The position numbers were made by a program, and so were the translations under genes. A DNA stretch of 64,000 nucleotides from positions 1 through 64,000 of the forward strand of contig NZ_MWQH01000005.1 of assembly GCF_002210295.1 (NCBI RefSeq). Reading direction: 5' to 3'. The notes below the pieces were generated by a model. That model was not told the origin of the DNA. It made no database searches and worked only from the letters and a program-made list of their open reading frames with translations. The DNA is from Fibrobacter sp. UWB5 (lineage in GTDB: Bacteria > Fibrobacterota > Fibrobacteria > Fibrobacterales > Fibrobacteraceae). Numbering within the stretch: the stretch's first letter is position 1; each line of letters starts with the position of its first letter. Below, piece after piece: positions 3,783-40,138 of the stretch.

Positions 3783-3811
3783 GTGACCCCCGCCTTCGCG
3801 GGGATGACAAT
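3783..3811. repeat. REP-like palindrome (CCCCGC...GCGGGG with GATGACA)
   Basis: GTGACCCCCGCC and its inverted partner GGGGATGACA form a GC-rich palindrome. Read on the other strand it aligns with 51689-51717 (TTGTCATGCCCGC...GCGGGCAT). Both look like members of a dispersed intergenic family. Confidence 0.55.
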
Positions 3812-33192: not shown

Positions 33193-33300
33193 CGCGAATT
33201 AACAATTCATTCTATTTCAGCAGACGCACTAATCTAAACTATAACGACATCAAGGACCTAGAGAAAATCTCGACACACTGATGAGCAATTTAATCACCGA

Positions 33301-33795
33301 TTACCCCTGCGAGTTCTTCTTTTTTGCCCTGTATGCGACCTTGCGTTCGCCAACGCAGTTCAAGGCAAGCGCTTTGTTCATGTAGTTCGCGCGTTCTAGT
33401 TCTATTGCGTTGCGCAGAGTCCTTGTAAGAAAATCGTTAGGACTTGAGCCAGCTTCGGCCGCCAACTTTCGTACTGTTTCTTGCAAGTCGTAAGGAACCT
33501 GGACAATCATGCTCTTCATCGGAGTTATGTGCAGTTCGCCGCCGACGGCCTCCGACATCTTCAGCAACTGCTTGTACGAAGGATTCGTTTTCAAGGATGC
33601 AATACGCGAGATAGCGCTTTGCGTCGTGCCCATCTTGTCGGCGACATCTTGCTGCGTGAGCCCCAAGGAATCTTTCAGGAAATCAAAATCCGTCAGGAAG
33701 GCCGACAGCGCCTCGTATGTCTTGGAGTACAAATCCAAACCTTCGTCTTCTTTTTCGAGCGAAGACATAAAGTCGATAACTTGATTCTTTTTCAT
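33301..33795 (-). CDS. XRE-type antitoxin with extra C-terminal RHH-like domain
   Basis: 164 residues. A Cro/C1 helix-turn-helix is clear in LGLTQQDVADKMGTTQSAISRIASLK (about 45-70). The C-terminal half (IVQVPYDLQETVRKLAAEAGSSPNDFLTRTLRNAIELE) looks like a ribbon-helix-helix, an unusual addition. The start is ATG 33795, which overlaps the toxin stop (ATGA). It should neutralise the upstream-encoded toxin and repress the pair through the palindrome at 34220. Confidence 0.8.
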   Translation of the reverse strand: MKKNQVIDFMSSLEKEDEGLDLYSKTYEALSAFLTDFDFLKDSLGLTQQDVADKMGTTQSAISRIASLKTNPSYKQLLKMSEAVGGELHITPMKSMIVQVPYDLQETVRKLAAEAGSSPNDFLTRTLRNAIELERANYMNKALALNCVGERKVAYRAKKKNSQG

Positions 33796-34214
33796 TGCAT
33801 AACTCCCTGTTTGACAAGTTCTCTGTATTGCTTCAGTTTTGCAAATGCTGTCCCGAGTTTCATCGGTTCCTTTTTGTGTTTCAATTCCGCGCATAACAAA
33901 ATGAGCGTGCTGATTTCGTTTATTGCCATGCAGAAATATATTCTAAAAACTCCGCCTTTCGCCTGCTTTGGAATTCGCATCTCGTACAAGCCGTCATATT
34001 CCTTCGGAAACTTGTAAATTTGTTCATTCAGCAAAAAAGGCGACAAATCCATAACAGTCGAAAGGACCTTCAGAAAACTCTTGACCCGTAGATACAAATC
34101 CAGACGATGCCTTGACAGATCCTTTATTTCTTTGCCGACATCTCCTGTTTCGTCTTTGGGGTCTGCTTTTTCTGCCTCAAAAAATTGCACATTCGGAAAG
34201 AACTTGAACTTCAT
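33792..34214 (-). CDS. HigB/RelE-superfamily toxin (phage Gp49-like)
   Basis: 140 residues. The region KEYDGLYEMRIPKQAKGGVFRIYFCM and the C-terminal KLGTAFAKLKQYRELV are typical of HigB/Gp49 mRNA interferases that act on ribosome-bound mRNA. Toxin-first order, as in higBA, and coupled to the antitoxin by ATGA. The N-terminus is longer than in minimal HigB toxins. Confidence 0.8.
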   Translation of the reverse strand: MKFKFFPNVQFFEAEKADPKDETGDVGKEIKDLSRHRLDLYLRVKSFLKVLSTVMDLSPFLLNEQIYKFPKEYDGLYEMRIPKQAKGGVFRIYFCMAINEISTLILLCAELKHKKEPMKLGTAFAKLKQYRELVKQGVMQ

Positions 34215-34333: not shown

Positions 34334-35719
34334 CTAATTCTTAATCAATCCTGCTAGTTCACTTTGTGCCGCGGGATTGTTCGCGTAATTCCGCATGACG
34401 GATTTCATATCGAGGAGGATGCAGTGGATTTTGTGGTAAGGCCTTTTGCAGTCTTTCCAATCGCCGTAAATGTAGCCAGCGCGCTTCATTTGGAAGATCG
34501 CAGAGCTCGCCAAAGTGCCTTCAGCTTCCGCGCAATATGGCATAATGAAGGCGTTGTAAATGCTTAAAGTGTCATCCTGAGCGAAGTGTAACGAAGTCGA
34601 AGGATTTTCCTCCATCTTTTCCACATATTCCGCATAAGCTATCTGCTTACACACGGATTCGGCCCCCGGCAAATGCGAATTGAAACCAGTCAAGCCGTAT
34701 TTGTAGTACTTTGAATCAAGGATATACACACCCTCCCCCACAACCATTATCGTATCTGGTCGGAGTGTGGAACGTTTCGGGTCGTTCAGAACTATTTCCT
34801 CTTCGGATTCATCAAGTTTTTCATCGCGGCGTCCGTCATTCCACCGTAAATGCGGATTGAATTTATCCTTGGCAACTCCCTGCGGCAACTTCCCGAAAAT
34901 TCTATCAACCATCGCTTCCCACACAGGGGCGAAGGTGTTTACGCCAAACAACGGCTCGTTTTCACTACCATCTTCGCCACGATTTTCCTCGTTTCCCAAA
35001 TAACGGACCATCTTTAGCATGGCATGGAAAAGTTCCAAATGTTTGTCATTGAATGTTGCCGCAATTTTATCCTGAATTACTTCTGCAAACAATTCGTAAT
35101 CAAACAAAAGTTCCGATTCTTCGACTTCATTTTCTAAAATGCCGTATAGCGAACCAATCAGCCGAGCAGATTCTTTAACGCAAAACTTGTGGACGAGCGT
35201 AATCAAGTTGTCTTCACGGTAACTCGTCTTGCGCGTAATCAAGTTCAGATATACAACCTGATCGTGACCTTCTTCGTCTTTGACGACCTGCGGCTTAATT
35301 CTTTTAATTGTTCGCGGCCAGCTGATTTTGCCGGAGAAACCCTTCTTGTAAATCGTTTCGGATTCCACAAAGTAGCCGAAATCGAGATAGTACCGCAATA
35401 CCGAAAGATACGCGTAGAACGGGAAATCCAGTTGGGATTTTCTCAAGTCTTCTTCGGAGAAATAGCTTTGCAGGGATTTATCGTTCAATACAGCAATAAG
35501 TTGGTAGAAATCCCGCTTGCAAATATCTTCAGAAGGCTTAGACGCACGATACCCCATCGGGAAATAGATCTTAGGTTGATTGTCTTCAATCCTTATCCCG
35601 ACAAACGATTTGTCCTTCTTTTCGTCACTTGAATACCAGGCATCATACACGCAAAAATCCGCAAAAAACGTGAAAGCCTTTTGTGCAGGTTCTGCGATAT
35701 GTTGAGCAAGAGCTGTCAT
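34334..35719 (-). CDS. LlaJI/McrC-like restriction endonuclease subunit
   Basis: 461 residues. A PD-(D/E)XK nuclease core is visible as RPDTIMVVGEGVYILDSKYYKYG (about 320-342). Such proteins pair with McrB-like GTPases; the LlaJI type combines them with cytosine methyltransferases. The ATG directly follows the stop of the McrB-like gene (TAAATG). A stretch ENPSTSLHFAQDDTL, between the nuclease core and the C-terminus, is the translation of a dispersed DNA repeat (34569-34606). Confidence 0.8.
   Translation of the reverse strand: MTALAQHIAEPAQKAFTFFADFCVYDAWYSSDEKKDKSFVGIRIEDNQPKIYFPMGYRASKPSEDICKRDFYQLIAVLNDKSLQSYFSEEDLRKSQLDFPFYAYLSVLRYYLDFGYFVESETIYKKGFSGKISWPRTIKRIKPQVVKDEEGHDQVVYLNLITRKTSYREDNLITLVHKFCVKESARLIGSLYGILENEVEESELLFDYELFAEVIQDKIAATFNDKHLELFHAMLKMVRYLGNEENRGEDGSENEPLFGVNTFAPVWEAMVDRIFGKLPQGVAKDKFNPHLRWNDGRRDEKLDESEEEIVLNDPKRSTLRPDTIMVVGEGVYILDSKYYKYGLTGFNSHLPGAESVCKQIAYAEYVEKMEENPSTSLHFAQDDTLSIYNAFIMPYCAEAEGTLASSAIFQMKRAGYIYGDWKDCKRPYHKIHCILLDMKSVMRNYANNPAAQSELAGLIKN
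34569..34606 (-). repeat. Dispersed TCATCCTGAGCGAAG-type repeat inserted in a coding sequence
   Basis: TCATCCTGAGCGAAGTG...CGAAGTCGAAGGAT is a common intergenic repeat type with an inverted ATCCT/AGGAT frame. Here it lies in frame inside the endonuclease gene and adds about 13-15 residues without a stop. Confidence 0.7.
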
Positions 35720-37834: not shown

Positions 37835-38889
37835 AATTGCCTCCAAATGTGAGCGATCAAAATTCCGACGACATTCACATCCCAGCCGTTGCCTGCTCTT
37901 TTAGACAACTGCGAATACGATTGTCCGTCAAAGTTGATTTCGCATTTCTTTTTATCGCGAGATATGTCAAACCCCATTAAACGGAATTGCTCATGAACAG
38001 ACATTTTCCTAACGATTTCTTTGCCCTTGTTTTTTCCAGTTTTCTTAGGAGGTTCGATAACACGAAGACTATTATGTTCTGGTTGTGTAATCGTTATGCT
38101 GTATCCATCTGTCTTAATCTTCTTGTTATATACGTCAAAACATAATGGCGTTTTCACAACGAAAGAATCAATGTTGTGCTTAACCTTCAAGTGAGCAATT
38201 TGTTCATCAGACAAATAAAGTGTCTTGTCAGGGGCATCATCTAAAAAATCTGCCATTTTCACCTTGCTTTGAATTTTGTCTGGTTTAAGATTGAAGTTTT
38301 CCGGTAATCCACCTAATCGAGCGAACATCCAAAGGCGCTCTCTATTTTGCGGAACCCCATAATCCTTCGAGTTCAGAACAACTTTCGCTAAAGTGTTTTC
38401 CTCTGTCGTACCATATCCCATTTCAATCAGGTCTTTTACAAGTTGATCATGGACGGGCTTAAATTTTCCAGAAGTAAAACCTTTAACATTCTCCAAAAGG
38501 ATATACTTCGGCTTTTTTACTCGACATATTCGAATGATGTGTCCAAGCATTGCTCCTCGACCATAGGGATCTTCTGTCCCCATTTGCATTCCTGCGGAAG
38601 AGAATGGCTGGCAAGGAAAACCGCCTGTAAACAAATCAAAATCAGGCAATTCATTAGGGTCAATCTGTGTGATGTCGCCCCAATTCTTTATAGGATTTCC
38701 TTTCTCGTCTCGATGATTTGCGTCAAAGAGTTTTGAAGCGTATTTATCGAACTCTGAATAACCAACAACAGTGTAATCAAAATTCGTCAAAGCTTTTTTT
38801 GCTCTTTTCAATCCAAAGGATGCTCCGCCATAACCAGCAAAGCCTTCAAAAACCCTGATTACATTCTTCTTCTGTCGAGTCTGGGCCAT
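37831..38889 (-). CDS. DNA (cytosine-5-)-methyltransferase
   Basis: 352 residues. Motif I FEGFAGYGGASFG, catalytic GFPCQPFS (motif IV, Cys about 93), ENV (motif VI), QNRER (motif VIII) and the C-terminal GNGWDVNVV (motif X) are all visible. First gene of a three-gene operon with the McrB-like and LlaJI-like subunits, so it protects host sites from that nuclease. Start set by GGAGCGAT 3-4 nt upstream. Confidence 0.93.
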   Translation of the reverse strand: MAQTRQKKNVIRVFEGFAGYGGASFGLKRAKKALTNFDYTVVGYSEFDKYASKLFDANHRDEKGNPIKNWGDITQIDPNELPDFDLFTGGFPCQPFSSAGMQMGTEDPYGRGAMLGHIIRICRVKKPKYILLENVKGFTSGKFKPVHDQLVKDLIEMGYGTTEENTLAKVVLNSKDYGVPQNRERLWMFARLGGLPENFNLKPDKIQSKVKMADFLDDAPDKTLYLSDEQIAHLKVKHNIDSFVVKTPLCFDVYNKKIKTDGYSITITQPEHNSLRVIEPPKKTGKNKGKEIVRKMSVHEQFRLMGFDISRDKKKCEINFDGQSYSQLSKRAGNGWDVNVVGILIAHIWRQL

Positions 38890-38905
38890 ATCGCTCCATT
38901 TTGAA

Positions 38906-38921
38906 AGTGAACGAGTTCACT
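38906..38921. promoter_or_regulatory. Perfect palindrome before the methyltransferase operon
   Basis: AGTGAACGAGTTCACT is a 16-bp perfect palindrome 17 bp upstream of the methyltransferase ATG. It is a good operator candidate for self-control of the restriction-modification operon. Confidence 0.5.
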
Positions 38922-39114
38922 CTCGCGGGAGCGGTTCTGGCCGATTCGCTTAGCCGGGGTGCAGGCAAAAAAAACGGCGGGGAGCCGACTCACTCCTCGC
39001 CTAAAAGCGCGACATTTTCAAAAGAATACAATACACCCGCAAAAACCCGAGCGGATACACTACGCCCCGGGTACACTACGCCCATGCAACCCACGGGCGA
39101 CGGCGAGTCATTGT

Positions 39115-39451
39115 CTTATTCTCGTATTCGTGAAAGTGTCTAGTTTCCAGATGAAGAACAAGAGCGATACTCAACGAGCGTTCACCCTCGTTCTTGCAGA
39201 CACATCCAAGCTTTTTCTGGATATAAAAAAGGCGTGGAGTTGAATGCACCTATCATCTGGAGGCCTAGACTGCCCGAATACAACAAGCGCAAACAACTCA
39301 CGCCCCATAATAGCCGTTTGCCTACAGGCAGATTTATCAAATATGCATGTACCAAAACGATGCGGCAGGCTTGCGCCGGTCGCAGACGTGAGCGTTCGCC
39401 TTATTCTCCGTATTCATGAAAGTGTCTAGTTTCCAGATGGAGAACAAGAGC
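39115..39451. repeat. Long direct repeat pair (about 51 bp, 285 bp apart)
   Basis: Copies at 39115-39165 and 39400-39451 share CTTATTCTC, then TGAAAGTGTCTAGTTTCCAG, then AGAACAAGAGC, with only a few mismatches. They bracket the candidate structured RNA. No gene is seen in 38922-39695. This is a repeat unit boundary or insertion scar of a mobile element. Confidence 0.75.
39225..39304 (-). ncRNA. Candidate structured RNA or large terminator hairpin
   Basis: On the minus strand GGCGTGAGTTG (39304-39294) pairs with CAACTCCACGCC (39242-39231), closing about 50 nt, and is directly followed by TTTTTT (39230-39225). A second small hairpin TGCCTGTAGGCA lies just upstream (39330-39319). The family is unknown to me. 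It lies between the two 51-bp direct repeats. Confidence 0.35.
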
Positions 39452-39695
39452 AAAAACTCTATTTTCATCCAAAATATAAATTATTCCGGTGTCAAAAGAT
39501 GTCGCCACGCCCGGAAGGCAAGAAAAAAGCGTAAAAATGCAGAATTCAACCGCCTGCAGGGGTCGATTTTCCTCGAAATTGTCAAAATTTCCGCAAAATT
39601 CGCCAATTGTCATAATATGACATTTAAGGAATGTATATTTGCGTCGAGAACACTTTTCCCCGCCTTTTTTGCTTGTAGGCGGATTGGAGTAGAAG

Positions 39696-40138
39696 ATGAA
39701 TGAAGTTGAAAGCAAAATTCTTGTGTTGAGAGATCAGCGAGTTATCCTTGATTGCGATTAGTTAATGTTGCCGAGAAAAAGGAGGTGGTCAAAAATTTTG
39801 ACCACCTTGCCAAGCTAAAATACAGTCCTGTTAATCCAACAGCCTTTACTGAACGCGGTCTCTACATGCTTGCGACAATTTTGAAAGGGCGAGTCGCAAC
39901 GCAAACAACTATCAACATCATCAATACATTCGTAGAAATTCGCGAGTTGTCTCGTGCCATTGCTCGCGTTCCTGAAGTTGTTGATGAAAATGAAAAGAAG
40001 TCTTTGTTGAAAAGAAGCGGCGAAATCATTTCTAATGTCCTCGCCTCGGATTCTACAAGTTTGGAAAGCGAAATGGAAATAGAATTGAATTTGGCGATGG
40101 TCAAGATAAGGCACAAAATAAAGAAAAAGTCAAATTGA
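39696..40138 (+). pseudogene. ORF6N-domain protein remnant (internal deletion and frameshift)
   Basis: It begins with MNEVESKILVLRDQRVILDCD, the usual ORF6N opening, then hits TAG at 39759. After a frame change it resumes as EVVKNFDHLAKLKYSPVNPTAFTERG and a C-terminal helical part to 40138. The middle of the ORF6N domain is missing. Such proteins are phage or mobile-element anti-repressor-like factors. Confidence 0.7.

Follow-up and report, generated by a model that had tools for sequence, protein, structure and literature searches.

How does a dispersed palindromic repeat come to lie, in frame, within the gene of a restriction nuclease, and has this happened once or many times? The question is raised by the genome of Fibrobacter sp. 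UWB5, in a stretch of 64,000 nucleotides (positions 1 to 64,000 of contig NZ_MWQH01000005.1; the whole of this stretch is called the window here). A sequence-only reading had recognised such a repeat in a restriction nuclease gene of LlaJI type, and the comparisons described below bear it out: the copy extends over 34 nt, belongs to a repeat spread through both genome and genus, and leaves the open reading frame (ORF) open.

Bacterial repeats of this general kind have been described as CGTC-tagged REPs, which carry an unpaired tag at one end, CGTC, TGTC or CCTC, an AT stem base and a small hairpin, are dispersed, and have no dedicated transposase (Di Nocera et al., 2013, PMC3733652). According to the available text of that study, some copies lie in frame in genes, Rickettsia among them, and different REPs occupy about the same recB site in two Xanthomonas species; families 1 to 4 have stems of 8-9 bp, loops of 4-5 nt and a short unpaired tail that is mostly CCA (PMC3733652). 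The five phyla with CGTC repeats named there exclude Fibrobacter, a genus with 0 mentions in the text available (PMC3733652). For Rickettsia, every ortholog carries the insert at the site, which leaves the age and number of events open, and the available part of the Rickettsia japonica study likewise leaves open the choice between hotspots and one old insertion (PMC3767692).

In-frame palindromes are thus already known from Rickettsia and other REPs, and no report of them in Fibrobacter was found in the open-access literature. A text search of papers with the 15-mer returned 0 hits, the matches listed for Fibrobacter and 'palindromic repeat' held no paper on such repeats, and the RepRanger paper contains 0 mentions of Fibrobacter.

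The repeat and its host gene

The features of the locus are collected in Table 1. All 38 bases of 34569-34606 read GTG-TCATCCTGAGCGAAG-TGTAACG-AAGTCGAAGGAT-T, with GTG-TCATCCTGAGCGAAGTGTAACGAAGTCGAAGGAT at 34569-34605, and the repeat proper (34572-34605) corresponds to codons 372-383 of the nuclease ORF. The minus-strand frame through the repeat is unbroken, its peptide ENPSTSLHFAQDDTL forming residues 371-385 of the 461-codon ORF. The ORF is intact and backed by homologues, and its frame is kept across the repeat, as in RPE-like elements; the insert (a peptide including MEENPSTSLHFAQDDTLSIYNAF) is presumably translated. Within the window the 15-mer occurs once at up to two mismatches, against 0.13 occurrences expected.

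Table 1. Features of the restriction locus and of the repeat sites in its nuclease gene (window coordinates).
Feature	Position	Strand	Basis or remark
Dispersed palindromic repeat, family 'A'	34569..34606	+	TGTC tag and inner hairpin GT-GTA-AC; core TCATCCTGAGCG...CGAAGGAT (34572-34605)
Restriction nuclease subunit that carries the repeat (LlaJI-type, McrC-like; 461 aa)	34334..35719	-	PF09563 RE_LlaJI, E 9.8e-28
McrB-like AAA_5 ATPase partner, 708 aa	35720..37846	-	upstream of nuclease
C5-cytosine DNA methyltransferase, 352 aa	37831..38889	-	upstream of nuclease
Invariant P321 D322 ... D335 K337	34709..34759	-	alignment
Loop 0, nuclease residues 300-314	34778..34822	-	pLDDT <50; CATTGCGAG-type repeat in three homologues, none in window
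Loop 2, nuclease residues 398-410	34490..34528	-	CATTGCGAG or CACTCTGGAG types in ten homologues, none in window
Left flank of locus	38884..39700	.	conserved where cargo is another restriction system; full-length single copy in its genome
Right flank (HTH gene)	33244..33846	.	conserved whether or not the locus has an intact LlaJI system

The adjacent genes for a PF09563 nuclease, an AAA_5 ATPase and a C5 methyltransferase make up what is predicted to be a normal-looking three-gene locus of LlaJI type. These components are shared with the LlaJI and McrBC systems, and BsuMI-like systems are counted with LlaJI in this likeness. LlaJI itself has two methyltransferases, whereas one was found adjoining here, and the repeats in the nuclease loops are a further difference. 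Named relatives of the nuclease come nearly all from Fibrobacter. The locus is adjoined by a small gene and an HTH gene (33301-34214), which may form a toxin-antitoxin pair; the HTH gene is kept in locus L110, which has a different restriction cargo.

The invariant residues P321 D322 ... D335 K337, which we take to be a PD-(D/E)XK motif, likely constitute the nuclease active site. An AlphaFold model of the nuclease (mean pLDDT 78, 38 sequences) found its best Foldseek matches in YDJA-YDIS (9a5m, E 1.5e-19) and McrC (6hz4, E 9.7e-8); a sequence profile run against the PDB gave 0 matches. The insert had been placed between the nuclease core and the C-terminus. In the model it falls instead within the nuclease domain, flanked by helix 353-371 and strand 386-395. 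Mean pLDDT is about 60 at residues 371-380 and below 50 at the two remaining repeat sites, residues 300-314 and 401-404; in the model, therefore, all three loops (0, 1 and 2, the window insert occupying loop 1) are low-confidence, poorly ordered segments of the nuclease domain, and they are probably exposed on the protein. Outside the loops, dN/dS between the window protein and close homologues is 0.07-0.14 (three comparisons), values which indicate that the host gene is under purifying selection.

Repeat families in the genome and the genus

Genome-wide numbers derive from pattern searches and from the stretches around their matches. The repeat proved to be dispersed, as the sequence-only reading had expected: TCATCCTGAGCGNAG at up to one mismatch is found at 10 places in the window's genome (3.36 Mb, 17 contigs), and at none when the pattern is reversed. 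The head and tail pattern of the A type occurs in 32 of 60 genomes searched. All 32 belong to the 37 from Fibrobacter and none to the 23 others, and the reversed pattern is absent from every genome. Two further families, CGTCATTGCGAG...GCAATCT and GTCATCCCCGC...GCGGGGATCT, are each present in 8/8 genomes, the latter with 64 copies in one of them, and a fourth, TCAYTCTGGAGCGNAG, is rarer (4/8). A GTCAT start is common to all but a few of the repeats.

The inner part of the A and A' types is a hairpin that varies in sequence and not in pairing. The 57 copies contain 30 distinct inner stems, every one of them with at least two pairs (shuffle mean 16.5, maximum 24) and 20 with at least three (shuffle mean 5.0, maximum 11). 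This pairing and the dispersal fit the REP class of mobile palindromes, as judged from sequence. The unpaired tag is TGTC in the window copy and mostly TGTC or CGTC in the other copies of the genome, and the first two stem positions are AT and complementary (TC-AT...AT) in the A, B and C types. The A family combines a 5-bp outer stem (ATCCT/AGGAT) with the variable inner hairpin and so departs from the stems of 8-9 bp and loops of 4-5 nt given for CGTC families 1 to 4, in which the window copy is therefore not placed. The C type does follow that rule, 39 of 61 hairpins having a 4-nt loop and 8-bp arms. The tails read ATCCAG in some copies, ATCT in others and ATTT in the window copy. By eye, most A-type copies have stop-free frames in both orientations.

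No gene with PF01797 (Y1_Tnp, RAYT-like) was found in the window's genome, though this genome is complete; the domain is present in 8/28 genomes of the genus. The mobilising enzyme would accordingly be another one, or the insert arrived with the gene, and a RAYT link for the window's genome is unsupported.

A C-type repeat with one mismatch lies at 3783-3810 of the window in the usual setting of such repeats, between genes; its neighbours are presumably a queuine tRNA-ribosyltransferase-like and a cellulase-like gene. The A-type pattern was also met in 38 stretches of viral contigs (L293-L330), one of them with five copies, and such contigs are a possible vehicle between hosts.

The same loops in homologous nucleases

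The nuclease gene was found at E <=1e-20 in 38 of 80 genomes of the genus. The alignment and tree comprise 44 distinct full-length proteins, and the detector count 46 rows, which add L145/L146. L097/L138 (a faulty ORF call, the near twin L115 being kept) and L096 (cut by a contig end) were left out, as were the orphans L108-L114 from the alignment, not being full length. In the 46 proteins a fixed-pattern detector made 24 exact and 34 near (up to one mismatch) matches, distributed over 19 proteins, of which one near match (L095 residue 444, 62-nt span) looks like chance. Reversed sequences gave 0 and 0, and codon shuffling a mean of 0 exact and 1.0 near matches.

Loop 1, from the helix end YAEYVE to the strand IYNAF, holds a repeat in 19 of the 44 aligned proteins, with seven label types. 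The families are those of CATCCTGAG, CATTCTGAG and CATTCTGGAG and the CATCCCCGC hairpin, the last in another frame. The A type is found in the window, L128, L129 and L092; A' (CATTCTGAG) in L089, L094, L095, L098 and L143; A3 (CATTCTGGAG) in L130 and L100; and the C hairpin in L013, L014, L015, L116 and L118. In addition, L131 carries a double repeat, L125 a decayed one, and L123, from a distant clade, a related hairpin. Loops 0 and 2 hold types of their own (Table 1). Since the reading frame of the A type differs from that of the C type, what recurs is the DNA and not the peptide.

Close homologues had been expected to lack the insert. The closest full-length one, in assembly G048 (91% identity), instead carries identical repeat DNA at the same site, and the others above 70% have the same or another repeat. 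The closest homologue with no recognisable repeat, L050 (59-62%), has a loop of similar length and other sequence. A short loop 1 is first met in L093 (52-57%), too distant to serve as a clean empty site that would reveal the exact insertion event. Among the 44 aligned proteins, no homologue without the DNA repeat has the residues of the insert, a finding that would fit the insertion proposed from the sequence alone.

On a tree of the flanking codons, the occupants of loop 1 require at least 11 changes, those of loop 2 at least 7 and those of loop 0 at least 2, counts that overstate independent insertions on one tree because the gene is mosaic. Sister alleles can differ, as in L128 of G048 (A) and L013 of G005 (C), which are joined with support 98. 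Between L011 and L128 the repeat has 0/34 differences where 4.3 are expected from the flanks (P 0.0097), and between L013 and L015 0/22 where 7.0 are expected (P 0.0002); other same-type pairs show a weaker contrast, with P up to 0.28. That repeats of one type are more alike than their flanks suggests recent arrival or conversion; constraint on the repeat itself may also have contributed.

CobA-HemD and other host genes

Among 97 repeat copies in 76 stretches of three genomes, a number that includes neighbours at one locus, about ten lie in frame in other genes; a stricter in-gene score retains 7 of the 97, the window copy included. The other hosts are CobA-HemD (two genomes), HrpB, a DUF3418 helicase, RsmG, a NirDL-like regulator, a CbiX/sirohaem enzyme, a GSCFA protein and a TonB receptor. 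One of 11 in-gene cases, L008, is uncertain, since its repeat may lie ahead of the true start.

CobA-HemD, a core tetrapyrrole enzyme, served as comparison gene; it was found in 72 of 80 genomes, and 70 copies were read (L223-L292). Its length ranges from 497 to 702 aa, and in-frame repeats are present in 53 of the 70 genomes at four sites, occupied in 26, 35, 6 and 15 of them. Here the detector made 54 exact matches and 94 near ones, against 0 and 1 in the reversed control and 0.1 and 3.1 after codon shuffling. On a quick tree of the gene itself the four sites require at least 21, 26, 6 and 13 changes, where shuffled labels give means of 25, 33, 6 and 15, so that repeat labels are only weakly inherited along the tree. 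In L282 and L283 the cores are 95% identical and the repeat types differ. Because CobA-HemD shows the same pattern, we no longer regard the restriction gene as a special target.

Repeats are also found within repeats. The CATCCCCGC-type C hairpin is plain in L240, whereas in L282 an entire CATTCTGGAG-type repeat lies within its loop. A long inner part is present in 15 of 61 C-type hairpins in the loci examined, and 11 of these 15 contain a repeat motif, compared with 1.3% of random windows; some of these hairpins hold short tandem duplications rather than true nesting. In CobA-HemD of L262, a 21-nt half repeat, GATTTCATCTGTCATCCCCGC, occurs several times in tandem at positions 1216-1330, each copy taking up seven codons.

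Origin of the loop repeats

Taken together, these comparisons make it likely that REP-like mobile palindromes with a CGTC or TGTC tag insert in tolerant loops of the nuclease, and that these loops are refilled by different families. A hairpin-forming element, one of a Fibrobacter-wide set of families, would insert mostly between genes. One copy would have landed, in a stop-free frame, in a surface loop of the LlaJI-type nuclease in an ancestor of the window allele, and would have been retained because the loop tolerates about a dozen extra residues; generally, copies in a tolerant loop with an open frame would survive. In related alleles, loop 1 and the two neighbouring loops would have been hit or refilled repeatedly by different families, aided by recombination that shuffles the gene between strains and by new repeats inserting into or beside old ones. 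We infer mobility, the order of events and the neutrality of the peptide; no transposition event was seen in the data compared.

An older repeat may even be a preferred target. More tentatively, new palindromes could land in the hairpins of older ones, or in the loop sequence that these leave, making an occupied loop a self-renewing dock. A few loops, in CobA-HemD and in the LlaJI nuclease, would then be rewritten repeatedly by unrelated mobile repeats while the rest of the protein stays fixed.

The repeats may also act as joints at which recombination swaps restriction cargo in the locus, a reading that we consider unlikely. Three loci (L108, L109 and L110) retain only the 3' end of the nuclease gene, from a C-type repeat onwards, behind a type III system; they share one junction and keep one or both flanks of the window locus. 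In L111, too, a C-type repeat marks the beginning of the 3' end, this time behind an SNF2/ATPase/HNH system, which in L113 is joined within loop 2. However, distinct junctions at a repeat number only two, and the mosaic gene has its main breakpoint near residue 280, a long way from the repeat: residues 1-280 fall into two lineages, with DNA identities of 29-61% between and 78-97% within them in the pairs compared, and parts of the nuclease domain are common to both.

Quite unlikely, too, is one ancestral insertion at the site, later diversified by mutation or gene conversion, which in the available text is one of two possibilities for RPE-4, RPE-6 and RPE-7 in Rickettsia (PMC3767692). It would account for the same orientation and, except in the double repeat of L131, the same frame of A, A' and A3 at loop 1, and for the absence of empty loops among the closest relatives. 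It is at odds with the C type, which has a hairpin of its own (22 nt, with arms of 8 bp), is read in another frame and occurs in the sister of an A-type allele, and with the type of its own in the distant clade of L123 (37% identity). The greater likeness of same-type repeats than of their flanks (for instance in L013 and L015) is the opposite of what old divergence would leave. In CobA-HemD, moreover, occupied and unoccupied alleles alternate on the tree, with 17, 16, 6 and 13 presence/absence changes.

Selection for the inserts themselves, as a means of diversifying the nuclease loops for specificity or for contact with the AAA partner, is very improbable. Three loops of one domain are hit, in a defence gene that is mosaic and exchanged; against this, dense repeats also occur in a core biosynthetic enzyme, the loops that carry them are poorly ordered in the model, and the nuclease core is under strong purifying selection. 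Chance resemblance of an ordinary loop peptide's DNA to the repeat can be set aside in view of the 34-nt match, inner hairpin included, with reversed controls at zero, and of the same DNA at the same site in the second assembly. Repeated insertion of mobile palindromes into tolerant loops thus stays the preferred explanation.

Relation to known repeats and significance

Unlike Rickettsia, Fibrobacter is not known to be intracellular. Its repeats share tag, AT stem base, a small hairpin, dispersal and in-frame copies with the CGTC-tagged REPs as set out in the text available, although recurrence at one site is much denser in Fibrobacter than in the single recB case (PMC3733652). The comparison with Rickettsia made in the sequence-only reading was apt: RPE-4 and RPE-6 are CGTC-tagged REPs (PMC3733652) and have an ATGAC motif such as ends the window repeat (PMC3767692). 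As far as the available text describes them, RPE-4, RPE-6 and RPE-7 also resemble the Fibrobacter repeats in lying in frame in unrelated proteins, with the ATGAC end motif and with different groups at or near one site; Fibrobacter differs in having occupied, unoccupied and differently occupied alleles side by side (PMC3767692).

The alleles compared suggest that some enzyme loops are landing sites filled repeatedly by mobile repeats. A practical caution is that length variation and peptides such as DPSTSLHFAQDD, VIPAKAGIS and VILSE..SKD in Fibrobacter proteins can stem from mobile DNA and not from function. The presence of unrelated families at one site makes the question raised in Rickettsia, hotspot or common origin, a testable one. 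Fibrobacter offers many genomes in which the alleles at fixed loops range from unoccupied through occupied and differently occupied to nested, which would allow the insertion rate, the choice of target and the tolerance of the protein to be measured.
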